From positions 1-25,619 of IMG/VR virus record IMGVR_UViG_3300044547_000068: a stretch of 25,619 nucleotides of DNA; one strand, given 5' to 3'. Positions 1,988 to 22,553 of the stretch are shown here, piece by piece (positions within the stretch are counted from its first letter, which is position 1; each line of letters opens with the position of its first letter). Origin of the DNA: a virus. Below the pieces are notes generated by a model. The model was not told the DNA's origin. It saw nothing but the letters and a program-made list of their open reading frames with translations, and did not search any database. A program made the translations under genes and the position numbers.

Positions 1988-4480
1988 ATGGCAACCAACA
2001 GCATGAGCCCATCCTTATATCAAGCCCCTATGGGAATTGATGCAGGACTCGGAGAACCGGATTTGGAAATTGAAATTGAAAACCCTGAAGGGGTAACAAT
2101 TACTGCAGGCGGAATGGAAATTGAAATTTTGCCGCAGACCGAAGAAGAGTTTGATGTAAACCTTGCCGAAGAAATGGATGACGGCGAACTGCAAAAGTTA
2201 GCCAGCGAGTTAATTGATTTAGTGGACACCGACATCCAGTCTCGCAAAGATTGGGTAGAGATGTATGTAAAAGGACTTGACGTCCTAGGCATGAACTACG
2301 AAGAGCGCACAGAGCCATGGCTAGGTGCCTGTGGCGTGTACTCCACAATTCTTACAGAAGCGGCCATCCGTTTCCAATCAGAGACTATTACCGAAAGCTT
2401 CCCGGCGCAGGGCCCCGTCAAGACCCGCATTATTGGCGAAGAAAATCCAGAAACCACCGAAGCTGCAGAACGTGTCCGCGATGACATGAACTACCAATTG
2501 ACCGAAGTGATGTTGGAGTATCGCCCTGAGCATGAGCGCATGTTGTATAGCTTAGGCTTGGCTGGCTCTGCATTTAAGAAGGTCTACTACGATCCAGCAC
2601 TTGGCCGTCAAGTGTCAATGTACATCCCTGCAGAAGACATCATCATTCCTTACGGCGCGTCTAGCACCCAGACGGCAGAGCGTGTTACTCATGTAATGCG
2701 TAAAACCAAAAACGACATCCGTAAATTACAGGTGGCCGGTTTCTACCGCGACATCGAGTTGTCTGATCCTGAGCCAATTCATACAGACGTTGAAAAGAAA
2801 AAAGCCGAAGGCCAAGGCTACACACTAACTGACGACGAGCGTTATCAGATTCTTGAAATCCACGTCGATTACAGCCTACCCGGCTACGAGGACGAAGACG
2901 ACATTGCTCTTCCTTACATCATTACCATTGATCGCGGTACTTCAGAAGTATTGGCTATCCGCCGTAACTGGAACAAAGACGACGATCTTTCACAGAAGCG
3001 CCAGCACTTTGTGCAGTACACATATGTACCCGGCTTTGGAGCCTACGGCCTTGGCCTAATCCATTTGATCGGCGGCTATGCGCGCGCTGGCACATCTTTG
3101 ATTCGCCAGTTGGTTGACGCAGGTACTTTGTCTAACTTACCCGGCGGTATGAAGACTAAAGGCATGCGCGTCAAGGGAGACGACACACCCATCGCCCCGG
3201 GCGAGTTCCGAGATGTGGACGTTGCCTCCGGCACGATTCGCGACAACATCATGGCGCTGCCATACAAGGAGCCAAGCCAAGTTCTGTTGGCGTTGCTGAA
3301 CCAAATCACTGAAGAAGGTCGTCGCTTAGGTTCGATCTCCGACATGAACATCAGCGACATGGGCGCGAACGCTCCGGTGGGCACAACCCTTGCGCTGCTT
3401 GAGCGACAGTTGAAAACCATGTCTGCAGTACAGGCGCGCGTTCACTATTCGATGAAGCAGGAGTTCAAGCTCCTCAAAGAAATCATCCGTGACTACACCC
3501 CTGAAGAGTACAACTACACTCCTGAAGGCGGCGATCGCAAAGCAAAGCAATCGGACTACGACCTTGTAGAAATTATTCCGGTGTCGGACCCCAACAGTTC
3601 GACCATGGCCCAGCGGATCATGCAATACCAAGCGGTCATTCAGTTGGCCCAGAGCGCACCGCAGATTTATAACCTTCCACATCTGCACCGCCAGATGATT
3701 GAGGTACTTGGCGTTAAGAATGCCGATAAATTGGTTCCTATCGATAGCGATCAAAAGCCCCGCGATCCTATTTCAGAGAATATGGCCTTCCTTAATGGTA
3801 AGCCAAATAAAGCATTTATCTATCAAGACCACGAAGCACACATTGCGGTACACAGTACGTTCCTGCAAGACCCAATGATTGCAGCAGCGATTGGACAAAG
3901 CCCCATGGCAGCCCAAATGCAGGCTGCTATTCAGGCTCACATTGCAGAGCACCTTGGTTTTGCTTACCGCGTGAAAATTCAAGAACGCCTTGGCGCTCCT
4001 TTGCCTACACCAGACGTCGAACTTTCACCAGAATTGGAAGTTCAGTTGTCCCGCGTGGTTGCACAGGCCGCACAGCAGTTGTTGATCATCAATAAAGGCC
4101 AAGCAGCGCAGCAGCAAGCCGCTCAGCAAGCCCAAGACCCAATCCTCCAGCTTCAAATGCAGGAAGTTCAGATCAAAAAGCAGGACGCTGACACTAAAGC
4201 TCGCAAGGTGGACGCAGATATTGCCAATAATCGTGAAAAATTGGCCCTTGACGCGGACAAAGGTGGGATTGACCCCCTACAACTCATGCAAGAGGCCCAA
4301 CAAGCTGAGCAACAGCACCAGCAGCAGCTACAAATCAACGCCCAGCAGGCTCAACAGGCTGCCCAAGCCGCTCAACAGCAGATGGCAATCAAGCAACAAC
4401 AGGCCCAGCAAGGCATGGCAAATAAAGCCGCACTTTTAAATCAAAAATTAGCCGGACAACCACCAAAACAAGGGGTTTAA
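1988..4480 (+). CDS. Portal protein (P22-like)
   Basis: The 830-residue protein forms the dodecameric vertex ring through which DNA enters and leaves. Evidence is its position directly after terL, its size, and portal-type segments such as RKDWVEMYVKGLDVLG (about residues 82-97), an acidic N terminus, ALGRQVSMYIPAEDIIIPYG (about 205-224) and the helical QEFKLLKEIIRDY region. It resembles the P22-type portals (about 725 residues) of many marine and freshwater phages. The last about 130 residues are extremely Gln/Ala-rich and predicted coiled coil, comparable to the long helical barrel of P22 portal. A weak GAAAGA precedes the start. The family assignment is from general resemblance and context. 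Confidence 0.88.
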   Translation: MATNSMSPSLYQAPMGIDAGLGEPDLEIEIENPEGVTITAGGMEIEILPQTEEEFDVNLAEEMDDGELQKLASELIDLVDTDIQSRKDWVEMYVKGLDVLGMNYEERTEPWLGACGVYSTILTEAAIRFQSETITESFPAQGPVKTRIIGEENPETTEAAERVRDDMNYQLTEVMLEYRPEHERMLYSLGLAGSAFKKVYYDPALGRQVSMYIPAEDIIIPYGASSTQTAERVTHVMRKTKNDIRKLQVAGFYRDIELSDPEPIHTDVEKKKAEGQGYTLTDDERYQILEIHVDYSLPGYEDEDDIALPYIITIDRGTSEVLAIRRNWNKDDDLSQKRQHFVQYTYVPGFGAYGLGLIHLIGGYARAGTSLIRQLVDAGTLSNLPGGMKTKGMRVKGDDTPIAPGEFRDVDVASGTIRDNIMALPYKEPSQVLLALLNQITEEGRRLGSISDMNISDMGANAPVGTTLALLERQLKTMSAVQARVHYSMKQEFKLLKEIIRDYTPEEYNYTPEGGDRKAKQSDYDLVEIIPVSDPNSSTMAQRIMQYQAVIQLAQSAPQIYNLPHLHRQMIEVLGVKNADKLVPIDSDQKPRDPISENMAFLNGKPNKAFIYQDHEAHIAVHSTFLQDPMIAAAIGQSPMAAQMQAAIQAHIAEHLGFAYRVKIQERLGAPLPTPDVELSPELEVQLSRVVAQAAQQLLIINKGQAAQQQAAQQAQDPILQLQMQEVQIKKQDADTKARKVDADIANNREKLALDADKGGIDPLQLMQEAQQAEQQHQQQLQINAQQAQQAAQAAQQQMAIKQQQAQQGMANKAALLNQKLAGQPPKQGV

Positions 4481-4752: not shown

Positions 4753-5154
4753 ATGTCAGAATTTAATGTTAACGCCGTAGATTTGTCTGGGGTACTAAAT
4801 GCCACAGATGAAGAAAAGGCCCGACAGATTCCAGACCCGGTTACATACCATTTACTGTGTATGTTGCCTAAGGCCGAGGAAGAAATCGGAGAAAGTGGGC
4901 TGATTAAAACCAGCCAAATGATGCATCACGAGGAGCTTCTATCCCCCGTGTTGTTTGTAGCCAAAATGGGCCCTGACGCCTTTACTGACGAAAAACGTTT
5001 CCCAAGCGGCCCAAGCTGCAAGGTAGGCGACTTTATTTTGGTTCGCCCTAATAGCGGTACACGGATGAAAATCCACAATACCGAATGGCGGCTTATCAAT
5101 GATGATTCGGTTGAAGCAGTAATCCAAGACCCACGAGGAGTACAACGGCCATGA
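4753..5154 (+). CDS. GroES-like co-chaperonin
   Basis: The 133-residue product has the GroES/Cpn10 layout: VTYHLLCMLPKAEE (residues 30-43) for the first strand, a mobile-loop-like stretch GESGLIKTSQMMHHEE (46-61), SPVLFVAKMGPDAF (64-77), KVGDFILVRPNSG (90-102) and a closing EWRLINDDSVEAVI (111-124). It has about 25 extra N-terminal residues. Co-chaperonins cap the host GroEL; phage T4 gp31 does this to fold its capsid protein. Its position among head genes, just before the scaffold, suggests the same task. An AAGGA site precedes the ATG, and the stop overlaps the next start (ATGA). Pairwise similarity is modest, so the identification is good but not certain. Confidence 0.72.
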   Translation: MSEFNVNAVDLSGVLNATDEEKARQIPDPVTYHLLCMLPKAEEEIGESGLIKTSQMMHHEELLSPVLFVAKMGPDAFTDEKRFPSGPSCKVGDFILVRPNSGTRMKIHNTEWRLINDDSVEAVIQDPRGVQRP

Positions 5155-6116
5155 GCATCGAAAAAACTGAGTTTGAGTTTCCAGACGAAGAAGGTACCAA
5201 AAACGCTCGTGCCGGTGGCCGTGTAGTTGAACCTGAATCCGATAAAGAATCCGATACAGAGATTGAAATTGTTGACGACACCCCTGAAAAGGATCGCCAT
5301 CGCACCCCTTTAGGTGAAGCGCCTAAGCCGGTAACTGATGATGAGCTCGCTAAATACAGCGATCAAAAGCTGAAGGACCGCCTTGCGCACATGAATAAGG
5401 GCTACCACGAAGAGCGACGAGCCAAGGAAGTAGCTTTACGGGAACGTGAAGAAGCTGTCCGGGTTGCGCAATCTGTCGTAGAAGAGAACAAACGCCTGCA
5501 AGGGTCGCTTGCCTCCAACCAAACGGCACTGATTGACCAAGCCAAGATGGTAGTAGCATCGGAAATCGAAGATGCTAAACGGGCCTATAAGGACGCCTAT
5601 GAGGCGGGGGACTCTGAAGCACTTACAAAGGCGCAGGAAAAATTAACCACCGCATCAATCCGTGCGGATAAGGTACATAATTTTAAACCTACCCCTTTAC
5701 AAACTAAAGAATATCCTGTACAAACGCAACAACAGGCTCCTCAAGCGCCTGAAGTTGATTCCAAAACACGCGACTGGTTAGACAAAAATTCGTGGTTTGG
5801 TACCAACCGAAAGATGGCAGCTTACGCTCTCATTTTGCACGAGGACCTAAAGGATTCTGGTGTGCCTGTGGCTAGTGATGAATATTACGAAGCTATCGAC
5901 GCCGATATGAGAAAACGGTTCCCTGAGTCATTTGCAGACGAACCCGCTGATGCTAAAACTTCTCAGCGAACAAAATCAAATGTAGTTGCACCGGCATCAC
6001 GTAGTACAGCGCCTCGAAAGATCGTACTTACACAAACGCAGGTAAACATCGCCAAGCGGCTCGGCGTTCCTTTGGAACTCTATGCTCGTAAGGTTGCGGA
6101 AGAAATGAGGAAATAA
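5151..6116 (+). CDS. Scaffolding-like head assembly protein
   Basis: The 321-residue protein is very acidic at its N terminus (FEFPDEEGTK, then ESDTEIEIVDDTPEKD), has a long predicted coiled coil (about residues 75-175, rich in E, K, A, Q), a Gln/Pro linker, a compact segment WLDKNSWFGTNRKMAAYALI (about 209-228) and a basic C terminus (RLGVPLELYARKVAEEMRK). Acidic-coiled-basic layout, position upstream of the capsid gene and size fit an internal scaffold that binds capsid protein through its C terminus. Its sequence is not close to a named scaffold that I can recall, so the call rests on composition and place. It overlaps the GroES-like gene by four bases. Confidence 0.65.
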   Translation: MSIEKTEFEFPDEEGTKNARAGGRVVEPESDKESDTEIEIVDDTPEKDRHRTPLGEAPKPVTDDELAKYSDQKLKDRLAHMNKGYHEERRAKEVALREREEAVRVAQSVVEENKRLQGSLASNQTALIDQAKMVVASEIEDAKRAYKDAYEAGDSEALTKAQEKLTTASIRADKVHNFKPTPLQTKEYPVQTQQQAPQAPEVDSKTRDWLDKNSWFGTNRKMAAYALILHEDLKDSGVPVASDEYYEAIDADMRKRFPESFADEPADAKTSQRTKSNVVAPASRSTAPRKIVLTQTQVNIAKRLGVPLELYARKVAEEMRK

Positions 6117-7196: not shown

Positions 7197-8108
7197 ATGG
7201 CTATTTCACGCGCACAACTACTTAAAGAACTCTTGCCCGGTCTGAACGCATTGTTTGGACTTGAGTACGCCAAATATGGTGAAGAGCACAAAGAAATCTA
7301 CGAAACAGAAGCGTCTGAGCGTAGTTTTGAAGAAGAGACCAAGCTGTCTGGTTTCTCCGCCGCTCCGGTGAAGAACGAGGGCTCTGCCATTGCTTATGAC
7401 AATGCGCAAGAAGCTTGGACTGCACGTTACAACCACGAAACAATCGCGATGGGCTTCTCCATCACCGAAGAAGCCGTGGAAGATAACTTGTATGACTCTT
7501 TGTCAGCACGTTACACCAAGGCTTTGGCCCGTGGTATGGCGTACACCAAGCAGGTTAAGGCTGCCTTTGTATTGAACAACGCGTTCAATACTGCGGTTAC
7601 CTACGGCGACGGCGTTACCTTGTGTAACACTGCTCACCCCCTGATCTCTGGTGGCACCAACAGCAATCGTCCGTCAACCGGCGCTGATTTGAACGAAACT
7701 TCGTTGGAAAACGCAGTTATTCAGATCGCTGCTTGGACAGATGAGCGCGGTTTGCTGATCGCTGCTAAGCCTAAGAAGCTGGTCGTACCTCCTTCTTTGA
7801 TGTTCGTTGCTACCCGTCTGTTGGAAACTAACCTCCGTGTTGGTACTACTGACAACGATATCAACGCATTGAAGAACAATGGTTCGATCCCTGAAGGCTA
7901 TTGCGTCAACCACTTCTTGACCGACACAAACGGTTGGTTCTTGTTGTCTGACGTGCCTAACGGCTTGAAGCACTTCGTCCGTATGCCTTTGGCTAATTCC
8001 ATGGATGGAGACTTCGACACCGGAAATGTACGTTACAAGGCCCGCGAGCGTTACAGCTTCGGCGTTAGCGACCCACTCGGCATCTTCGGATCGCCCGGTT
8101 CGTCCTAA
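7197..8108 (+). CDS. Major capsid protein (Mu gpT-like, HK97 fold)
   Basis: The 303-residue product builds the capsid shell. It starts MAISRAQLLKELLPGLNALF and shows features of the Mu gpT-like family: ITEEAVEDNLYD (about residues 88-99), CNTAHPL, KPKKLVVPPSLMFVATRLL (about 192-210), VGTTDNDINALK, YCVNHFLTDTNGWFLL and a C-terminal YKARERYSFGVSDP. The length is typical of that family. A perfect AAGGAG (7185-7190) six bases upstream, and a strong terminator just after the stop, indicate high expression. No cleaved prohead protease is encoded nearby. Confidence 0.9.
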   Translation: MAISRAQLLKELLPGLNALFGLEYAKYGEEHKEIYETEASERSFEEETKLSGFSAAPVKNEGSAIAYDNAQEAWTARYNHETIAMGFSITEEAVEDNLYDSLSARYTKALARGMAYTKQVKAAFVLNNAFNTAVTYGDGVTLCNTAHPLISGGTNSNRPSTGADLNETSLENAVIQIAAWTDERGLLIAAKPKKLVVPPSLMFVATRLLETNLRVGTTDNDINALKNNGSIPEGYCVNHFLTDTNGWFLLSDVPNGLKHFVRMPLANSMDGDFDTGNVRYKARERYSFGVSDPLGIFGSPGSS

Positions 8109-9322: not shown

Positions 9323-10064
9323 TACAGAGAAGAGCATTAACCTAGTTGGGCGCAAACTTATGGTTGCGATCCCCTGCTATGACGGCAGGCTGAATATTAA
9401 GACGGCGTTTGCTTTGGCAGCGCTCGTCCCTAAACTGGACAAGATGGGTGTCCAGATTCAGCTTGCGCATTTGTCAGGGTGCTCGATCATTACCAAGGCG
9501 CGTAACGCGCTAGTTACTAGATTCATGGATTCGGATTGCACTGATCTACTATTTGTAGATTCGGATGTCATCATTACTCCCGAAGACGTAATTCGTTTGC
9601 TGGCCCTGAGCGGTGGCAAAGACATTACTGCCGGCTCATATCCACGTCGCGCTGACGACCGTAAATTCTTCCTTGACTTCTACTTAAACGATGATGGCGA
9701 GTTAGAGTTTGACAACAATGGTTTGATGCGTGTAAAAAATGTAGCTACAGGCTTTATGATGATCCAGCGCCATGTGCTGGAAACCATGATTACCAACCAC
9801 CCCGAGTGGAAGTACTACAACAACGTGGACGATACGCACGAATCAGCAGTATTTGATTTTGCTATTGTTGACGGCAATTACATCGGGGAAGATTACCTGT
9901 TCTGCCAGCGCGCTCGCGCAGAAGGCTTTACAGTGTTCCTTGACACCGACATCAGCCTGCCGCACGTAGGCACTACCGAGTTCTACCGTAACTTTGCTGA
10001 AGATGCTATGAAGCCTTTGATGGCAGAGCATGGTAAGAAGCGTTTAAAGGTAGCAAATGGCTAA
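9315..10064 (+). CDS. GT-A fold glycosyltransferase-like protein
   Basis: The 249-residue product looks like a nucleotide-sugar-dependent glycosyltransferase: MVAIPCYDG (16-24) for the first strand, TKARNALVTRFM (60-71), LLFVDSDVIITPED (78-91) with the metal-binding DSD, ITAGSYPRR (104-112), ATGFMMIQR (144-152) and GEDYLFCQRARAEGF (191-205), then DTDISLPHVG (210-219) with a possible metal-binding His. It may modify a virion protein, host polysaccharide or lipopolysaccharide. It lies in the structural block and overlaps both neighbours, so its expression is tied to virion genes. Substrate and acceptor cannot be read from the sequence. Confidence 0.8.
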   Translation: MADTEKSINLVGRKLMVAIPCYDGRLNIKTAFALAALVPKLDKMGVQIQLAHLSGCSIITKARNALVTRFMDSDCTDLLFVDSDVIITPEDVIRLLALSGGKDITAGSYPRRADDRKFFLDFYLNDDGELEFDNNGLMRVKNVATGFMMIQRHVLETMITNHPEWKYYNNVDDTHESAVFDFAIVDGNYIGEDYLFCQRARAEGFTVFLDTDISLPHVGTTEFYRNFAEDAMKPLMAEHGKKRLKVANG

Positions 10065-10311
10065 GAAAACCCCATCCCTTGCGGTAGGTCGCGGTGAGAA
10101 GCTTCCTGTCTCTAAAGGGGCTGGGCTGACCGCCAAAGGCCGTGCTAAGTACAACGCAGCCACAGGATCAAACCTCAAAGCTCCACAACCAGAAGGTGGG
10201 CCCCGCAAAAAGTCATTCTGCGCTCGTATGTCTGGCATGCCCGGCCCGATGAAAGACGAAAAAGGCAAGCCTACCCGTAAGGCTGCTTCACTAGCTAGAT
10301 GGAAGTGCTGA
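10057..10311 (+). CDS. Small basic conserved protein ending in Cys
   Basis: The 84-residue product is basic and Gly/Pro-rich. It contains VSKGAGLTAKGRAKYNAATG, NLKAPQPEGGPRKKSFCARM and MKDEKGKPTRKAASLARWKC, a conserved small-protein family that I associate from memory with DUF6321 (not verified). Function is unknown. It overlaps the glycosyltransferase by eight bases and opens the run of small basic genes. The last residue is Cys, a feature shared by four of the next five proteins. Confidence 0.8.
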   Translation: MAKKTPSLAVGRGEKLPVSKGAGLTAKGRAKYNAATGSNLKAPQPEGGPRKKSFCARMSGMPGPMKDEKGKPTRKAASLARWKC

Positions 10312-10319
10312 GGTAAAAA

Positions 10320-10646
10320 ATGGCTAATAAAGAAGATGAAATTATCAATGGTTTAATGGAAGCAATTAAATCCAAAAAAGATACAGACCCCGGAATGACT
10401 CCACGTCGAGATGGTCGCGGTAGTACTTTTGGTGATGATCCCGGAATGACACCGATGAATAAGGTTGATAGGGAGGATATTGATTTTAATAAACTTCTTA
10501 ATCGTGATGCGCCTCGTTCTAGTGCCTCTACAAAAAAGAAACCTTCTAATCCATATAATTTGAAAAATGGCGGAAAAGTTGCCTCCGCTTCTAGTCGTGC
10601 CGATGGTATAGCCCAGCGTGGCAAAACCCGTGGGAAGATGTGCTGA
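10320..10646 (+). CDS. Small protein with C-terminal ADGIA-RGKTRGKM motif
   Basis: The 108-residue protein has an acidic N-terminal half with a repeated DPGMTP (two copies, about residues 22-27 and 41-46) and a basic C-terminal tail: NGGKVASASS, then RADGIAQRGKTRGKMC at the very end. The tail is the reference copy of a motif present on six proteins in this window. I know no function. The acidic body and basic tail might let it bind DNA or a capsid surface, but this is inference. The start has GAGG upstream. Confidence 0.75.
   Translation: MANKEDEIINGLMEAIKSKKDTDPGMTPRRDGRGSTFGDDPGMTPMNKVDREDIDFNKLLNRDAPRSSASTKKKPSNPYNLKNGGKVASASSRADGIAQRGKTRGKMC
10617..10640 (+). repeat. DNA copy 1 of the motif-coding repeat
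   Basis: This 24-base stretch encodes RGKTRGKM and is identical, except for one base (C for T), to 12861-12884. Near identity at synonymous positions suggests recent duplication or recombination between the two genes. Confidence 0.7.
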
Positions 10647-10647
10647 T

Positions 10648-10908
10648 ATGGAACTAAGCACAATTTGGTCGGCAGTACTTTCTGTTGTGATGGGGGTTTT
10701 TGGCCTATTCGTCAAAGAAAAGTTTGCTCAAATGAAAGAAATTGGCGAAGACACTAAGCGTGTCGAACGTCTTTTAAACATAACCCGCGAGGAGATTGCC
10801 CGTGATACAGTTACTCAAGCAGAAGTTCAACGAATTACTGACCACATTGACCAACGCTTTAACAAGCTTGAAGCAAAAATTGACCAGCTTATTCAAGCAG
10901 GGAAATGA
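10648..10908 (+). CDS. Small membrane protein with coiled coil
   Basis: The 86-residue product begins MELSTIWSAVLSVVMGVFGLF, one transmembrane segment (about residues 5-22), followed by a long charged helix with coiled-coil character to the end (VKEKFAQMKEIGEDTKRVER, ITDHIDQRFNKLEAKIDQLI). I start it at ATG 10648, one base after the previous stop; a longer frame from GTG 10618 lies inside the upstream motif. One membrane helix plus coiled coil recalls inner-membrane spanins, some holin partners and other small phage membrane proteins. It is the only membrane protein in the basic-protein cluster. Function is uncertain. Confidence 0.75.
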   Translation: MELSTIWSAVLSVVMGVFGLFVKEKFAQMKEIGEDTKRVERLLNITREEIARDTVTQAEVQRITDHIDQRFNKLEAKIDQLIQAGK

Positions 10909-11300
10909 TGCCAAGTAGCTCTAAAAAGCAACACAATTTCATGGCTGCGATAGCCAATTCGCCATCGTTTGCTAAGAAAGTAGGAATCCCACAGTCCGTG
11001 GGAAAAGACTTTAACGAGGCCGATAAAGGCCGTAAATTTTCAAAAGGTGGTGATACTATGGCTTCTAAAATGAACCCCGGCTTTATGGCAATGATAGCTA
11101 AGAAAAAAGACGGTAAAGCCGAAGGCGGTAAAGCCGACATGAAACAAGACAAATCAATGATGCAGAAGGCCGTCAACAAACACGAAGGCCGTTTGCACAA
11201 AGGCGCGACTATGACTAAATTGGCTAAAGGTGGCGGTATCGAAACCAAGGGTAAAACCAAAGGTAAGATGATCGCCATGAAAAACGGCGGACGGTGCTAA
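10905..11300 (+). CDS. Small Lys-rich protein with GKTKGKM motif
   Basis: The 131-residue product opens SSSKKQHNFMAAIANSPSF, then KKVGIPQSVGKDF, a conserved N-terminal pattern of small phage proteins. The rest is Lys/Gly/Met-rich (FMAMIAKKKDGKAEGGKAD). Near the end is GGGIETKGKTKGKM followed by IAMKNGGRC. The last nine residues recur, with two changes, at the end of the protein encoded at 11821-12105. It is strongly basic and ends in Cys. Two adjacent ATGs (10905 and 10908) could start it; both overlap the upstream stop. Function unknown. Confidence 0.75.
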   Translation: MMPSSSKKQHNFMAAIANSPSFAKKVGIPQSVGKDFNEADKGRKFSKGGDTMASKMNPGFMAMIAKKKDGKAEGGKADMKQDKSMMQKAVNKHEGRLHKGATMTKLAKGGGIETKGKTKGKMIAMKNGGRC

Positions 11301-11310
11301 TCATGGCTAC
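11294..11310 (+). repeat. Gene-junction repeat, copy 1
   Basis: GTGCTAATCATGGCTAC spans the last codons and stop of one gene and the start of the next. An identical copy lies at 11812-11828, at the next junction, suggesting the genes arose or moved by recombination at such junctions. Confidence 0.8.
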
Positions 11311-11818
11311 ATCAGAATTTGGTTCCGCGTTTGCTGCTGCTCGTAGAGCGGGAGATAAAACGTTTGAGTTCAACGGTAAAAAATATACTACCGAAACCGC
11401 TGAAGAGACGGGCGCAGCAAAGAAAGCTGCTCGTAACTCTGGTATGCGTAAACAGAGCGATATGATTTCTGCCCTTCAAAGCGCAGAACGTAATGCATCA
11501 GACGAAACTTCTCCTTTGGCGCGTCAAAAAATTGCAGAAGCGGCCAAAGCTGCGCGTGATAGATACGCAAATGCAGACTCTGAAGAATCAATGAGTGGAT
11601 ACAAATCCCGTTATACACCCGCAGGCATGGCCCCAAAAACCACAGCAGGCGCGCGTCCATCTTCTCCAGCCCCATACCAAAGCATGCTTTCTGAAGAAGA
11701 TCAAGGCATGAAACGTGGCGGGAAAATTAAAAAGATGGCTTCAGGTGGATCGGTTTCTGCTTCCCGCCGTGCAGACGGTATTGCCATTAAAGGCAAAACT
11801 CGTGGAAAGATGTGCTAA
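11303..11818 (+). CDS. Small protein with TF-GK-Y-T N terminus and C-terminal ADGIA motif
   Basis: The 171-residue protein has three parts: an N-terminal FGSAFAAARRAGDKTFEF plus NGKKYTTE, a pattern I have seen in several small phage proteins; a helical, Ala/Glu/Lys-rich middle; and a Pro/Ser linker leading to MASGGSVSASRR and ADGIAIKGKTRGKMC at the end. ATG 11303 is preferred; a GTG at 11294 would add three residues and overlap the upstream stop. There is no clear ribosome site, so translation is probably coupled. Function unknown; it could be a virion-internal protein. Confidence 0.75.
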   Translation: MATSEFGSAFAAARRAGDKTFEFNGKKYTTETAEETGAAKKAARNSGMRKQSDMISALQSAERNASDETSPLARQKIAEAAKAARDRYANADSEESMSGYKSRYTPAGMAPKTTAGARPSSPAPYQSMLSEEDQGMKRGGKIKKMASGGSVSASRRADGIAIKGKTRGKMC

Positions 11819-11828
11819 TCATGGCTAC
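11812..11828 (+). repeat. Gene-junction repeat, copy 2
   Basis: This is the identical second copy of the 17-base junction described at 11294-11310, 518 bases further on. Both encode a terminal Cys, a TAA stop, and a new ATG-Ala-Thr start. Confidence 0.8.
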
Positions 11829-12105
11829 TACTAGACCTACATTCTCTGAAGATCAAGATATGGGTGACGTGTCTCCAGCCGATGTGGCTGAAGCAAAGAA
11901 ACGTACCAAAGCACAGGCAGCTTACGATGCTGCAGACCAGACTCCACCTTCAAAAAGCAGTGATGCTCGTGCTCTTGTACGTGGTCAACGAGGCTATGCA
12001 AAAGGCGGTTCAGTTTCTTCTGCATCCTCTCGTGCTGATGGTTGCGCTCAAAGTGGCAAGACCAAAGGTAAGATGGTTGCAATGAAAAATGGCGGGATGT
12101 GCTAA
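11821..12105 (+). CDS. Small protein with ADGCA motif and AMKNGGMC tail
   Basis: The 94-residue product has an acidic N-terminal half (FSEDQDMGDVSPADVAEAKK) and a basic end: AKGGSVSSASSRADGCA, QSGKTKGKM, then VAMKNGGMC. It combines the two C-terminal modules of this cluster, the ADGIA-type motif and the MKNGG-C extension also seen at 11300. The stop TAA shares a base with the next ATG (TAATG). Terminal Cys again. Function unknown. Confidence 0.72.
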   Translation: MATTRPTFSEDQDMGDVSPADVAEAKKRTKAQAAYDAADQTPPSKSSDARALVRGQRGYAKGGSVSSASSRADGCAQSGKTKGKMVAMKNGGMC

Positions 12106-12380
12106 TGATTGCCAGTCGCGGCATGGGGGCCGTAAACCCCTCCAAGATGCCTAAAGGTGTGAAGAAGGCCCGCCGGGATGACACCGACTTCACACAATAC
12201 GCTGAAGGTGGTACGGTCAATGCTGCGGGTAACTACACAAAACCCAGTCTTCGCAAGAAGATTGTGTCGCAAGTAAAAGCCGCAGCAACGCAAGGAACCG
12301 GCGCTGGAAAATGGTCTGCACGTAAAGCTCAGCTAGTCGCTAAGAAATATAAAGCCTCTGGCGGTGGGTATAGGGACTAA
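12105..12380 (+). CDS. Small basic protein with KWSARKAQL-GGGY domain
   Basis: The 91-residue product contains EGGTVNAAGNYTKPSLRKKI (about residues 34-53) and GKWSARKAQLVAKKYKASGG, closing GGGYRD. This YTKP-LR ... WSARKAQL ... GGGY layout is a conserved small domain found in viruses and bacteria (I recall a DUF name such as DUF5872 but cannot verify it). The next gene encodes what I recall as the other half of the same longer protein, in the +1 frame. ATG 12105 overlaps the upstream stop. No catalytic motif is visible. Confidence 0.78.
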   Translation: MIASRGMGAVNPSKMPKGVKKARRDDTDFTQYAEGGTVNAAGNYTKPSLRKKIVSQVKAAATQGTGAGKWSARKAQLVAKKYKASGGGYRD

Positions 12381-12381
12381 A

Positions 12382-12615
12382 ATGAAGGCTCCACAGAAAT
12401 CGCTCAAGGACTGGGGTGACCAGAAATGGAGAACTAAAAGTGGTAAAAAATCTTCTGATACAGGTGAAAGATACCTACCAAGCGCTGCGATTAAAAGCCT
12501 CAGCCCTAGTGAGTATGCTGCGACAACGCGGGCAAAACGTGCTGGCAAAGCTAAAGGGAAACAATTCGTAGCTCAGCCCAAAGGCATAGCAAAGAAAACA
12601 GCGGGGTTTAGATAA
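12382..12615 (+). CDS. Small basic protein with GERYLP domain
   Basis: The 77-residue product reads KSLKDWGDQKWRTKSGKKSS, then TGERYLPSAAIKSLSPSEYA, TTRAKRAGKAKGKQF and QPKGIAKKTAGFR. The pattern is strongly conserved in small viral and bacterial proteins of unknown function. In some viruses I recall it following a WSARKAQL-GGGY segment in one chain; here the two are separate genes one base apart and in different frames. It is very basic and could bind nucleic acid. ATG 12382 is the plausible start; an in-frame GTG at 12364 lies inside the previous gene. Confidence 0.78.
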   Translation: MKAPQKSLKDWGDQKWRTKSGKKSSDTGERYLPSAAIKSLSPSEYAATTRAKRAGKAKGKQFVAQPKGIAKKTAGFR

Positions 12616-12890
12616 TGGCAGATGAAACGTATGGTATTTGGGATATAAAAGCTCAAAGTTTGGTACGAAATAAAACGTACGACAGCGCTAGTAAAGCTAA
12701 TGCTGCGAGTAACCGCATGGATACAACCTACGGGGGCTCGCGTTACGTACCCAAACTTATTCCCGGCCAGCCGGTAAAAACAAGTGCTGCGGAGTCTGAT
12801 GAACAGCCTGTAGCAGCTAAGCGCGGGGGATTTATAAAATCTGCTGACGGCATTGCAAAACGTGGTAAAACCCGTGGGAAGATGATTTAA
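12615..12890 (+). CDS. Small protein with C-terminal ADGIA-RGKTRGKM motif
   Basis: The 91-residue protein starts with a compact segment (ETYGIWDIKAQSLVRNKTYD, then SASKANAASNRMDTTYGGSR) unlike its neighbours, has a Pro/Ser/Glu linker, and ends AKRGGFIKSADGIAKRG, KTRGKMI. It ends in Ile, not Cys. Its start overlaps the upstream stop (TAATG). The unrelated body joined to the same tail shows that the tail behaves as a module. It closes the small-protein run and is followed one base later by the adaptor gene. Confidence 0.75.
   Translation: MADETYGIWDIKAQSLVRNKTYDSASKANAASNRMDTTYGGSRYVPKLIPGQPVKTSAAESDEQPVAAKRGGFIKSADGIAKRGKTRGKMI
12861..12884 (+). repeat. DNA copy 2 of the motif-coding repeat
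   Basis: This stretch differs from 10617-10640 by one base in 24 and encodes the same RGKTRGKM residues. The two genes otherwise share no visible similarity. Confidence 0.7.
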
Positions 12891-12891
12891 T

Positions 12892-13818
12892 ATGGCAACC
12901 TCCGGCACCTCATCGTTTAACCTAGACCTCACAGAAATTGTTGAGGAGGCGTTTGAACGCGCGGGTTCCGAGTTGCGTTCGGGTTATGACCTGCGCACCG
13001 CGCGGCGTTCACTGAACTTGATGTTTGCCGAGTGGGCAAACCGCGGTATTAACATGTGGACGTTTGAGCAATGCACGATTAATTTGGTGGCTGGCCAAGC
13101 CACTTACGCCCTTCCTGTAGATACCGTAGACCTCTTGGAGCACGTCATTCGCACGGGCGCAGGCAACGTATCAACACAGGCTGACCTAACTATTTCGCGT
13201 ATCAGCGTATCAACATACGCCACGATTCCAAACAAACTCTCCCAAGCCCGACCCATCCAAGTATGGTTCCAACGGCTTGACGGCGAGCGATCCGCAGTGG
13301 GAACCACCCTTGCAAGCACCATAACGGCCACAGACACGACGATAACTGTTGCGTCAACGGTTGGCCTAGGTACAACGGGTTTTGTCCTTATTGACGCGGA
13401 AACCATCAATTACGGGTCAGTCTCAGGGAATCAGCTTTTGTACTGCTCACGCGGTCAGGCAAACACCACGGCTGCGGCTCACACATCGGGGGCTGCTGTA
13501 TATCCACAGAACCTTCCATCGGTAACCGTCTGGCCCGTGCCAGATACCACTGCTGACTACCAATTCGTGTACTACCGCATGCGCCGTATTAACGATGCAG
13601 GTGGTGGTGTAAACACCATGGATGTACCGTTCCGTTTTTTACCCTGTATGGTGGCTGGCTTGGCGTATCAGTTAGCCATGAAGATACCCGGTGGCGCAGA
13701 CCGTTTACCTATTTTGAAGGCCCAATACGACGAGGCATGGCAGCTTGCTGCTGACGAGGACCGGGAAACCGCTCCCATACGATTTGTGCCCCGCCAGATG
13801 TTTATTGGTGGCACTTAA
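12892..13818 (+). CDS. Head-tail adaptor protein (P22 gp4-like) with inserted domain
   Basis: The 308-residue protein has the gp4-like connector core: a helical start (LTEIVEEAFERAGSELRSGY and RSLNLMFAEWANRGINMWTF, residues 13-58), ATYALPVDTVDLLEHV (70-85), PSVTVWPVPD (209-218), YYRMRRI and a C-terminal helix region ending RFVPRQMF. Such proteins sit below the portal and prepare the tail. Between residues 135 and 205 is a Thr/Gly-rich beta domain (ITVASTVGLGTTGFVLIDAE) not needed in the P22 protein, which is about 166 residues long. It likely sticks out from the ring. A second adaptor follows at 15203. Confidence 0.78.
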   Translation: MATSGTSSFNLDLTEIVEEAFERAGSELRSGYDLRTARRSLNLMFAEWANRGINMWTFEQCTINLVAGQATYALPVDTVDLLEHVIRTGAGNVSTQADLTISRISVSTYATIPNKLSQARPIQVWFQRLDGERSAVGTTLASTITATDTTITVASTVGLGTTGFVLIDAETINYGSVSGNQLLYCSRGQANTTAAAHTSGAAVYPQNLPSVTVWPVPDTTADYQFVYYRMRRINDAGGGVNTMDVPFRFLPCMVAGLAYQLAMKIPGGADRLPILKAQYDEAWQLAADEDRETAPIRFVPRQMFIGGT

Positions 13819-14207
13819 TGGGTAATCGGTTCGCATCCGGCAAAAAGGCGATTGCGGAATGTGATCGCTGCGGGCAGCAGTTCTTGCTGAAGAAGTTAAA
13901 GACTGAGATAATCAAGCAACGGAAGTATGAGTTATTGGTGTGCCCCGAGTGCTGGGACCCGGATCAGCCGCAGTTAATGCTTGGTACATTTCCGGTAGAT
14001 GATCCACAAGCATTGCGCAACCCACGTAGGGATACAACATACGTGGTATCTGGAGTAAATTCAGAAGGCAATTTGTCTGGTGGCTCGCGGGATATCCAGT
14101 GGAATTGGAATCCCGTTGGGGGTTCTTCAGGGTTTGACGCCTCTCTAACCCCAAACTACCTAGTTGCAACCACGAGTGTCGGAAATGTTACGATAACGGT
14201 ATCATGA
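13818..14207 (+). CDS. Zinc-ribbon protein of the connector region
   Basis: The 129-residue product has two CxxC pairs, C15/C18 (AECDRCGQQF) and C42/C45 (VCPECWDPDQ), a zinc ribbon, followed by PQALRNPRRDTTYVV and a beta-rich tail ending TTSVGNVTITVS. Similar zinc-ribbon proteins sit near adaptor genes in uncultured phages. It may be a small structural part of the neck or tail. The start uses the last base of the adaptor stop, and its stop overlaps the HNH gene (ATGA). Function not known. Confidence 0.7.
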   Translation: MGNRFASGKKAIAECDRCGQQFLLKKLKTEIIKQRKYELLVCPECWDPDQPQLMLGTFPVDDPQALRNPRRDTTYVVSGVNSEGNLSGGSRDIQWNWNPVGGSSGFDASLTPNYLVATTSVGNVTITVS

Positions 14208-14734
14208 AAACTTGCACTGTTTGTAAAGAAAATAAGCCTGTAAACCAGTTTGAGTTACAGAGATGCCAATGTTTGGATTGCCGAAAAAGTTATTCTAAAG
14301 TTCGAAGAGCAGCGTACTACGCACGAACAAGAGAATCCTCAATTTTAAAAACAAAACTTTGGCGAGAGCAAAACCCAGAAAAAAAAGTTCAATTTCGAAA
14401 AGCAGAATATTTGGTCAATGCTGAAGCAGCCAAAGAAGCAGCGCGGAAATATCGCGCTCAATACCCGGCAAAAACAAATGCTTGGAGTCGTAAACATCAG
14501 TTATCCAAAAGGATGCAAACGCCAAAGTGGCTAACGCAAGACGATCACTGGATGATTGAGCAGGCTTATGAATTGGCAGCGCTTCGTACCAAATTGTTTG
14601 GTTTTTCTTGGCAAGTTGACCATATCGTTCCTTTACAGGGAAAACTTGTGTCGGGGCTGCATACCCCGTACAATTTGCAAGTCATACCTGCAAAGCACAA
14701 CCAAAGCAAGTCAAATCAATTTACGGTTTCATAG
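14204..14734 (+). CDS. HNH homing-type endonuclease
   Basis: The 176-residue product has an N-terminal zinc site (C4/C7 and C23/C26), a long Arg/Lys/Ala-rich helix (about residues 30-100) and a C-terminal HNH nuclease: FSWQVDHIVPLQGKLVSGLH (D139, H140, H153), then YNLQVIPAKHNQSKSN (N157, N166, K169, N171). This is the layout of free-standing HNH endonucleases that spread between phage genomes. It is more A-rich than its neighbours and breaks an otherwise structural run. The four-base overlap with the upstream gene shows it is now well fitted. A packaging role, as for HNH proteins next to terminases, is unlikely here because terL is far away. Confidence 0.85.
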   Translation: MKTCTVCKENKPVNQFELQRCQCLDCRKSYSKVRRAAYYARTRESSILKTKLWREQNPEKKVQFRKAEYLVNAEAAKEAARKYRAQYPAKTNAWSRKHQLSKRMQTPKWLTQDDHWMIEQAYELAALRTKLFGFSWQVDHIVPLQGKLVSGLHTPYNLQVIPAKHNQSKSNQFTVS

Positions 14735-14743
14735 GAGTTAATC

Positions 14744-14932
14744 ATGGCATATACAAAAGCTGCGGATGGTATTACTAAACAAGGTAAGACCAAAGGCAAA
14801 AATCTTGGTGATAGTGGTCCTACCGTCGCCATCCAACACGGTGGTAAAGGCAGCAAGGGCGGCAAAACCAATGAAGAAATGCTGAAGCTGGGCCGTGGTC
14901 TGGCTAAAGTAGCTAACCAAAAGCGAGGCTAA
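14744..14932 (+). CDS. Very small basic protein with N-terminal ADGIT motif
   Basis: The 62-residue product carries the shared motif at its N terminus (AADGITKQGKTKGKNLGD, residues 6-23), then QHGGKGSKGGKTNEEMLKLG and a basic end (LAKVANQKRG). It is the only copy in which the motif comes first. AGGAG (14733-14737) precedes the ATG. It is separated from the other motif genes by the adaptor, zinc-ribbon and HNH genes. Function unknown. Confidence 0.7.
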   Translation: MAYTKAADGITKQGKTKGKNLGDSGPTVAIQHGGKGSKGGKTNEEMLKLGRGLAKVANQKRG

Positions 14933-14933
14933 T

Positions 14934-15200
14934 ATGGCAACCTTTAGCAAAAAACTGATGGGCAAGGAAGTTGGCGATGCCAGCGTTTACGCCAAGCCCC
15001 ACACTATGTCTGGCAAAGCGGTGGCTATTTCTGGTAACCCCGGCAAAGAACCCAACCATAGCAAGTTGGACTCGTATGACGTAAGTGTAGGCAATATCAG
15101 CAAGTCCGCTGGTAATGAGCCTGTCAAAACCTCTGGAATTAAAATCCGTGGTACCGGCTGTGCTACCAAAGGTGTCATGGCCCGGGGGCCGATGGCATAA
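14934..15200 (+). CDS. Small conserved protein with GIKIRGTG-ATKG-MARGPMA tail
   Basis: The 88-residue product has a Lys/Ser/Gly-rich body (VYAKPHTMSGKAVAISGNPG) and a C-terminal tail SGIKIRGTGCATKGVMARGP. The tail is Gly/Lys/Arg-rich like the ADGIA motif and also ends in a short Met-containing block, but the residues differ; it may be a distant relative or a separate module. I have seen similar tails in other uncultured phages. It lies one base after the previous stop and three before the second adaptor. Function unknown. Confidence 0.7.
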   Translation: MATFSKKLMGKEVGDASVYAKPHTMSGKAVAISGNPGKEPNHSKLDSYDVSVGNISKSAGNEPVKTSGIKIRGTGCATKGVMARGPMA

Positions 15201-21529: not shown

Positions 21530-21637
21530 ATGCTATTTATTGCTTGGCAATTCGTAAAACTTTTAGTACTTTTCCCTATTTACAAGTACGTAAAACACAA
21601 ACGCAAACTACAAAAGGAAAAACAACATGCAATTTGA
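21530..21637 (+). CDS. Small single-helix membrane protein (35 aa)
   Basis: The frame runs 35 codons: MLFIAWQFVKLLVLFPIYKY, then VKHKRKLQKEKQHAI. Residues 2-20 form a hydrophobic membrane helix and the rest is strongly basic, so the C terminus is probably cytoplasmic. AAAAGG (21519-21524) lies five bases before the ATG. It overlaps the hydrolase gene by 11 bases in another frame and fills the whole gap before it. The coding evidence is the ribosome site, the sensible membrane topology and the overlap; a possible role is a membrane partner of the hydrolase or a small holin-like protein. Confidence 0.5.
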   Translation: MLFIAWQFVKLLVLFPIYKYVKHKRKLQKEKQHAI

Positions 21638-22553
21638 ATATAAATCACAACCCCTACGGCAAAACTGGGACAAAGAACTTCCTAAGTATTGGTTTGATAA
21701 CAGCCCGTATAAAACGCATTTTTTTAACGCGGTTAGCATCCTTATCCCACAGGCAGAAAATGTTGTAATCCACGCCATTAAAGCAAACAGGCTGCTTTTA
21801 ACAGACCCCGTGCTTAAAGCGCAAACAGCCGAGATGATTGCTCAAGAGAATTGGCATTCGTTTTCTCATCGCCAATACAATACATGGCTTGATAAAGTTG
21901 GAGTACCCGCGACTGAGATGGGCAAGTGGTATCTGCAAAAAATGCTAGCGTCTAAGAAATGGCTGGAAAATCTTGTGGGCCCTAAAGGATGGCTAACCGT
22001 TGTTATTTGTGGTGAGCACAATGCCGCCGTTATGATGGAATATTTCTTAGAGCGCCCTAAGTTGTTAGCACAAATGCACCCCCATTTCCGCCAAGCATGG
22101 GTGTGGCACTTCCTTGAAGAGATTGAACATAAGGGGTCTGCGCTTGATATGTGGCATGACCTCAAGGACGTATACGGCTACAAACGGCATATGCTCCAAA
22201 TTGCCTTTGCGTTATTTGTTGTTCGGTTCAAAATAAACCATACCAAAATGGTTATACGGTTGTTACGACATGATAAGCAACTATGGAAATGGAAGACTTT
22301 TAAAGACGCTGCAAGTTTTCTTTGGGGTATGGACGGCCTAAATGTTAAAACTTTTATACCGCTACTTAAATTCTTTAAACCAAACTTCCATCCTTGGGAT
22401 CACGACACCCGTTATCTTCTTGAGCAGTACTCTAAAATTACAGAAGAAGAGCAGCTTAATGACACCCAAGTGCAGCAAATCGACGCAGAATTCAAAGGAT
22501 GTATTTCGGACATTGAGGCCGTCATAGCCGCAAACAATGTTAAGACGTACTGA
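21627..22553 (+). CDS. Metal-dependent hydrolase-like protein (ferritin-like diiron type, PF10118)
   Basis: The 308-residue protein resembles the predicted metal-dependent hydrolase family (PF10118, COG3687), whose helical fold has a diiron-type site. Ligand motifs visible are FFNAVSILIPQAE (E44), QENWHSFSHRQYN (E74-x-x-H77), ICGEHNAAVMMEYFLE (E130 and E138) and WHFLEEIEHKGSALDMW (E165-x-x-H168). This fits two E-x-x-H pairs plus single Glu ligands. The true reaction of the family is poorly known; desaturase- or hydroxylase-like oxidation is possible. Many aromatic residues and a hydrophobic, helical middle (QIAFALFVVRFK) suggest membrane association. AAAGGA precedes the start. In a phage it would be an auxiliary metabolic gene. 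Confidence 0.8.
   Translation: MQFEYKSQPLRQNWDKELPKYWFDNSPYKTHFFNAVSILIPQAENVVIHAIKANRLLLTDPVLKAQTAEMIAQENWHSFSHRQYNTWLDKVGVPATEMGKWYLQKMLASKKWLENLVGPKGWLTVVICGEHNAAVMMEYFLERPKLLAQMHPHFRQAWVWHFLEEIEHKGSALDMWHDLKDVYGYKRHMLQIAFALFVVRFKINHTKMVIRLLRHDKQLWKWKTFKDAASFLWGMDGLNVKTFIPLLKFFKPNFHPWDHDTRYLLEQYSKITEEEQLNDTQVQQIDAEFKGCISDIEAVIAANNVKTY

Follow-up and report, generated by a model that had tools for sequence, protein, structure and literature searches.

Why should a series of small viral proteins with unrelated sequences carry the same short peptide, mostly at the very C-terminus? The question is raised by IMGVR_UViG_3300044547_000068 (G000), a single virus record of 25,619 bases that was analysed over its full length and is called the window here. 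Downstream of the gene for its major capsid protein (MCP) lies a group of open reading frames (ORFs) sharing a block of the form RADG[IC]AxRGKT[RK]G[KR]M-x-stop, which we call the tag (class 1). We found that this tag is conserved as a peptide, C-terminal, modular, situated in the head/connector block, bound to one MCP lineage, and divided into lineage-specific dialects. The tag is the constant part of these proteins and the body the variable part. Virion targeting is the best-supported function, as suggested by the gene location, the linkage to the MCP lineage and the turnover of the bodies.

The preliminary description of this DNA had placed the block on six ORFs, all of which exist, and all on the + strand. 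The protein encoded at 10320..10646 (108 aa) ends with the tag at 10563-10643 (GGKVASASSRADGIAQRGKTRGKMC-stop), and an orthologue with the same body and tag is found in a close relative, L107. The product of 10905..11300 (131 aa) starts with a module that we call P3 (KKQHNFMAAIANSPSFAKKVGIPQSVGKDF) and has a degenerate core, GGGIETKGKTKGKM, at 11229-11270, followed by the extension IAMKNGGRC. The ORF at 11294..11818 (174 aa from a GTG codon, with ATG 11303 as the likely start) encodes an N-terminal helix-hairpin module (FGSAFAAARRAGDKTFEFNGKKYTTE), a disordered middle and the tag at 11735-11815. In the product of 11812..12105 (97 aa, likely start ATG 11821) the tag at 11995-12078 is followed by the extension AMKNGGMC, and the 91-aa protein from 12615..12890 ends with the tag at 12816-12887 (GGFIKSADGIAKRGKTRGKMI-stop). 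Finally, the small protein from 14744..14932 has the core at its N-terminus (MAYTKAADGITKQGKTKGKN, 14747-14800), as had been described, and belongs to a cluster of 16 relatives with an N-terminal core.

A 28-column profile built from 198 tags, leaving out the window and L107, matched the ORFs ending at 10646 (E 8e-17), 12105 (1e-15), 11818 (2e-12) and 12890 (2e-10) and the one starting at 14744 (3e-6), and 100 triplet-shuffled windows gave zero profile matches below 1e-3. The same five ORFs were recovered by tblastn within their own record, and chance similarity or low complexity are therefore ruled out. The ORF ending at 11300 was missed by the profile alone; its inclusion in the preliminary description was nevertheless right, because the degenerate GKT core recurs in 43 of its orthologues in related phages, and 73 have a fuller one. 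The common form proposed for the block needs correction in two respects, since the ORF ending at 12890 has no SAS segment, and the blocks at 12105 and 11300 are followed by about 8-9 residues (..VAMKNGGMC and ..IAMKNGGRC). A seventh, related C-terminal block had been overlooked: RGTGCATKGVMARGPMA, at 15147-15197, closes the protein encoded at 14934..15200 (+) and represents what we call class 4.

The wider tag set was collected from viral contigs with a degenerate DNA pattern for DGxAx[RK]GKT[RK]G[KR]M, which gave at least 120 stretches. Among the matches listed, the stop codon lies exactly one residue past the motif in 198 of 239 protein copies. A profile search of the same loci gave 221 strict C-terminal copies, 12 that end three residues sooner (..RGKTRA-stop), about 90 that are extended at the C-terminus, most of them from the P3 family and its relatives, and a small N-terminal family. 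A separate count has 245 strict C-terminal copies, against the cluster of 16 N-terminal ones. The consensus is GG-x-V-SSAS-[KS]-R-[AG]-D-G-[IC]-A-Q-[RK]-G-K-T-[RK]-G-[KR]-M-[VCI]-COOH. Some of its columns are fixed by the search pattern, and conservation was therefore read from a check set of 28 tags from MCP-fetched loci that are absent from the pattern set. There, counting back from the C-terminus, D-14, G-13, G-8 and T-6 are present in all 28 tags, K-7 and G-4 in 27, and A-11 in 25, and position -2 holds a bulky hydrophobic residue (M, Y, F, I, L or W), not Met throughout. At the invariant G, A, T and D residues the third codon positions vary (about 1-1.9 bits), and selection therefore acts on the peptide. 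Tags are only 60% identical at the nucleotide level inside one genome and 55% between genomes; as the bodies are also unrelated, recent tandem duplication of one gene is ruled out.

Two covariations were found inside the tag. Cysteines at -12 and -1 occur together in only 1 of 193 tags (odds ratio 0.015; P = 0.006 by within-record shuffling), and in the independent set they occur together in none of 28, with 9 and 10 single occurrences (hypergeometric P about 0.007, calculated by hand). This exclusion suggests either that the 12-residue core, when bound, has its two ends close together, or that disulphides have to be avoided. An alternation between R-5/K-3 and K-5/R-3 (odds ratio 25), which did not clearly recur in the independent set, may reflect an overlapping ribosome-binding site, discussed below.

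The bodies that precede the tag fall into about 147 BLAST clusters. They are short, poor in aromatic residues and appear disordered, with TOP-IDP values above 0.1 in 97% and with Trp and Cys rare. The AlphaFold2 model of the 11294-11818 protein has a mean predicted local distance difference test score (pLDDT) of 57.7, with order only in residues ~2-32 and an unstructured tag. When 144 body representatives were compared with Pfam, PHROGs and PADLOC, only DUF6321 and P3 were recognised, plus isolated weak matches in Pfam (E 0.0017 at best), and the small ORFs of the window gave nothing but DUF6321 in Pfam. This last family shows how a tag is gained. Its proteins end ..RAWNC-stop in most phages, and extend elsewhere into ends of the ADGGYVKSADGIAQRGKTKGKMC type (L037, L055, L057, L094, L126, L172 and L024), on bodies about 77-97% identical to the untagged ones; the window has such a protein at 10057..10311 (+), ending ..LARWKC, which in other phages runs on into the tag. 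Tags can also be exchanged, as the body MATRWDNLPGLRDDV ends with RADGIAQRGKTKGRYI in L107 and with RGWGIARGARKAKMR in L166. Together with the number of body clusters and the strict C-terminal register, gain and exchange bear out the earlier proposal of a movable tag.

The bodies also turn over fast. As MCP identity between phages drops from >97.5 to 80-84%, the shared fraction of tagged bodies falls through 54, 18, 11, 9 and 5%, whereas for a control, the class-4 protein encoded nearby, it is 100, 79, 69, 50 and 42% over the same range (18 against 79% at 92-97.5% MCP identity). A second movable module, FxxAFxxARxxGDKTFEFxGKKYxTE, which is modelled as a helix plus hairpin (pLDDT ~85), lies at the N-terminus of some tagged proteins (window 11300-11400, L031, L048, L091, L121, L148 and L263) and occurs with both tag dialects. 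The P3 module, KKQHNFMAAIANxPxFAKKVGIPQSVGKDF, is found at 10908-11036 in the window and also in L142 (phiKZ) and L448 (121Q), and is thus common to these small podovirus-like phages and to phiKZ/Asterius-type jumbo phages. It corresponds to PHROG 16759 (phiKZ PHIKZ165.1, 121Q gp51), with 79% identity over 43 aa to the N-terminus of the 10905-11300 protein. In Asteriusvirus it starts a 263-aa protein with the deposited label 'structural protein' or 'virion structural protein'. The phiKZ protein (58 aa) has no tag.

The tag exists in dialects. Class 2, which we call 'marine' from its occurrence in pelagiphage-like contigs and not from sample metadata, reads RGAGIARKGVRPAKM-x (as a pattern, RGAGIA[RKQ][KR]GVRPAKM-x). 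It agrees with class 1 in length, 16 residues, and in register, and is C-terminal in 121 of 129 copies. Class 1 is present at 185 loci and class 2 at 123, with some contigs counted twice, and no locus has both. The same body type follows this division: P3 bodies bear the class-1 tag in 123 of 141 closed ORFs of class-1 phages, and class 2 in none, whereas in class-2 phages 15 of 20 bear class 2. On an MCP tree of 119 tips there are only three dialect changes. Class 4 (RGTGAATKGxMARGPMA) is exactly C-terminal in all 101 pattern matches and is found in phages of both dialects, the window included. By tblastn, no cultured relative was found of the main class-2 body or of a class-4 protein. Two further blocks were noted in this gene region: a relative without class-1 tags has another C-terminal block, RGCGAVMEGRRKQTQYI, in the same gene interval (L197:6909-7235), and a conserved neighbour in the window (ORF 12105-12380), which recurs in relatives, starts with MIASRGMGAVNPSKMPKGVKKA, an N-terminal RGxGA block resembling the tag core.

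The dialects are tied to the MCP lineage, and so is the tag itself. The MCP of the window (7197..8108, +) matches PF25209 (Phage_capsid_4) above the cut-off and, weakly, also 'head maturation protease' fusion PHROGs. Its family is present in each of the 22 tag-bearing records that measure 22 kb or more and in 27 of 30 overall, the three records without it all being under 20 kb; the long class-2 records have it in 6 of 6. Tags lie 1-8 kb downstream of the MCP gene. In 13 records of 50-87 kb, one of them read across its ends, each tag is about 1.5-8 kb downstream of MCP on the same strand, and no tagged gene was found outside the head block. Conversely, 30 of the 36 loci that were fetched through MCP and have at least 4.5 kb of downstream sequence carry a tag, which is never upstream or on the opposite strand. 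In 257 Gb of prokaryotic genomes the tag was matched only four times, three of them on contigs that also encode the phage MCP, ruling out an origin in host genomes; the fourth is a tag at a contig edge joined to an unrelated acyltransferase-like ORF (L128:1-330, binned as Patulibacter), which looks like a chimeric assembly. The motif is terminal in most copies and always beside head and connector genes, in agreement with the checks that the preliminary description had set for it.

Taken together, the genes suggest that this shared peptide label probably marks proteins for the virus particle. In our view, it is reasonably likely that the tag is a capsid-loading signal on hypervariable cargo, similar to the capsid-targeting sequence (CTS) of T4 but C-terminal, and recognised by a co-inherited head component. 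In such a mechanism a short, mainly C-terminal peptide of the general form R-[AG]-x-G-[IC]-A-x-[RK]-G-x(4)-[KR]-Phi-x-COOH (Phi = M, Y, F, I) would be recognised by a head component on the MCP, scaffold or portal side, and this recognition would carry a rapidly exchanged set of small proteins, disordered in their bodies, into or onto the particle as it is assembled, with the bodies as payload and the tag as address. The MCP lineage is linked to the tag, and MCP itself is a candidate for the receptor. We infer that a head protein is the recognition partner, that the tagged proteins are in the virion, and that some of them are ejected into the host. A more far-reaching version, which we put forward tentatively, is that the mutually exclusive dialects and class 4 form a lineage-specific address code, by which an exchanged arsenal of disordered proteins is loaded into particles and delivered with the DNA.

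Two known systems work on a comparable principle. The T4 CTS is N-terminal and is removed by the prohead protease. Cargo-loading peptides of encapsulins are short, C-terminal and found on different cargo proteins. The internal proteins of T4 are highly diverse payloads that share only a short targeting sequence and are loaded into the prohead core (PMC3012670). The likeness lies in the diverse bodies, here about 147 clusters, on one conserved short sequence. However, the sequences are unrelated, the tag is mainly C-terminal, it is Gly/Lys/Arg-rich, and most copies have no acidic cleavage motif; in addition, it has mutually exclusive dialects and probably overlaps a ribosome-binding site. As regards cleavage by a prohead protease after an acidic consensus, Glu is missing from the tag core in most copies, but the MCP has the weak match to 'head maturation protease' fusion PHROGs mentioned above. 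With encapsulins, whose shell is described as an HK97-fold protein (PMC8346489, PMC10960027), the tag shares the short C-terminal peptide on cargo, and the MCP here likewise belongs to a phage capsid family (PF25209), but the peptide sequence is different, encapsulin cargo consists of folded enzymes and not of disordered orphans, and the setting is a virus and not a cell compartment. As neither the N-terminal position of the CTS nor the enzyme cargo of encapsulins is found, the tag family is like both in working principle and a member of neither.

The tag has no match in Pfam, PHROG, PADLOC or PDB, which rules out a known family. Isolated tag sequences of 26-37 aa matched no PHROG, and neither a 25-aa tag nor a doubled one gave a tblastn match in cultured phages, the short query being insensitive there; the divergent tag of Planktothrix phage Pag-Yong1 (on one protein, UMO75986.1, ending GRDGCAKRGRTKGRFI) was found only through its MCP. 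In the literature we found no paper on the motif string, on a shared or conserved C-terminal motif of small phage proteins, or on DUF6321. The tag family is thus new to the libraries and literature searched.

Several observations weigh against a capsid-loading role. MCP without a class-1 tag is found at 6 of 36 loci and in the cultured phages HTVC023P, CRP-902, QDWS535 and RW, so the capsid does not depend on the tag, and gene neighbourhood by itself could account for the co-inheritance with MCP. In several copies the position is internal or N-terminal. No domain was recognised in the bodies beyond DUF6321 and P3, so no payload activity is visible. In PDB there is no match to the tag, the single row being an 8-residue chance match (E 0.19), and the AlphaFold2 model of MCP (pLDDT 41.7) is too poor for docking or fold comparison.

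The genetic data would be identical if the tag fixed the variable proteins to the outer face of the capsid or connector, as decoration similar to T4 Hoc and Soc, with the bodies acting in adsorption or in particle properties. The genes do have the cement/MCP genes on one side and the portal adaptor gene on the other, and hypervariable accessory proteins are common on virion surfaces. The bodies, however, are short, with few aromatic residues and no recognisable folded domains, unlike known decoration proteins, and we consider this arrangement unlikely.

Electrostatics alone would suffice if the tag were a non-specific nucleic-acid-binding tail that coats or condenses the packaged DNA, or phage RNA, and has no protein receptor. 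The net charge of +0.24 per residue is in line with such a tail, as is the contact of T4 internal proteins with DNA through their lysines (PMC3012670). Charge needs neither the invariant D-14, G-13, A-11, G-8 and T-6 nor an exact C-terminal register, which argues against a purely electrostatic tail. The nearly complete exclusion of the double cysteine at -12/-1 and the exclusive dialects tied to the MCP lineage also speak against it, and we regard this explanation as doubtful at best.

Fast body turnover would equally suit an arms race inside the infected cell, where the proteins could act in host take-over or counter-defence, with the tag as a degron or a handle for a host machine and no link to the particle; hydrophobic residues ahead of a free C-terminus do resemble C-terminal recognition signals in general. 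Nevertheless, the genes stand close together on one strand of the head block, with none elsewhere in the genomes of 50-87 kb, the bodies gave no informative PADLOC or Pfam match, and the dialect tracks the MCP lineage, which together make this role improbable.

There is also information at the DNA level, at the very end of the tag. The G-4 codon is GGA or GGG (GGR) in 135 of the 193 tags, compared with 8 for G-8 and 21 for G-13, an excess that replicates in the independent set (14 of 28, against 3 and 6). In 170 of 193 tags the ATG of the next ORF (of at least 40 codons) lies -1 to +8 nt from the last sense codon, often in ATGA or TAATG overlaps; CGTGGGAAGATGTGCTGATATGG and CGTGGAAAGATGTGCTAATCATGG are examples from the window. 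Judging from codon choice and spacing, the tag end probably doubles as the ribosome-binding site of the next cassette. That the whole block works at the nucleic-acid level, as a recombination joint with a built-in ribosome-binding site through which new genes are spliced into the operon, with the peptide as a by-product, is very improbable and refuted as a complete explanation: it covers no more than the final two or three codons, the third positions are free from codon -18 to codon -6 where the amino acids are fixed, the tags have the low nucleotide identities given above, and the core also occurs N-terminally, where such a role for the next gene is impossible.

If the capsid-loading reading holds, the tag would provide a simple sequence handle by which hundreds of virion-associated payload proteins, held in no family library, could be recognised in viral dark matter, the identity and role of ejected proteins would become directly testable, and the peptide would be a C-terminal counterpart of the T4 targeting sequence, usable for loading chosen proteins into phage shells. 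The tag-bearing phages are a very common aquatic group, in which many small proteins from genes next to that of the capsid, fast-changing and otherwise unrelated, bear the same label. The group includes HTVC023P-type pelagiphages and vSAG 37-F6, called putatively the most abundant marine virus (PMC5490008, PMC9599517). The capsid of vSAG 37-F6 has homologues in those marine viral proteins that proteomics detected as most abundant, and a hypervariable island encoding an unknown protein has been reported in this virus (PMC5490008). The head module of this type, vSAG 37-F6 included, shares the MCP family and gene order with the window (PMC9599517), but cultured HTVC023P has no class-1 tags and none were seen in HTVC027P; in this group the tags are found on uncultured relatives and, in divergent form, in Pag-Yong1. 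Relatives of the MCP at 40-72% identity include those of the Pelagibacter phages HTVC023P and HTVC027P, Pag-Yong1, Phage DSL-LC04, Roseobacter CRP-901 and CRP-902, Alcaligenes QDWS535 and Caulobacter RW.

The gene order of the window is terminase (464-1966) and portal (1988-4480), followed by a GroES-like co-chaperonin in the head block (4753-5154; phrog_3188, E 1.5e-6), a scaffold-like protein labelled from gene position only (5151-6116), MCP, the DUF6321 protein, the tagged ORFs, an SU10-type portal adaptor (12892..13818, +; PF24175 SU10_adaptor), which is the downstream neighbour of the main tag array, and the tail genes. GroES is annotated at the same position in all named relatives examined. 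Between the connector genes sits an Endonuclease VII-like ORF (14204-14737; phrog_1035, E 3e-16), which may be a homing-type insertion, because relatives such as L149 and L155 do not have it. Further downstream, 21627-22553 encodes a predicted metal-dependent hydrolase (PF10118, E 4e-56), likely an auxiliary gene of cellular origin.

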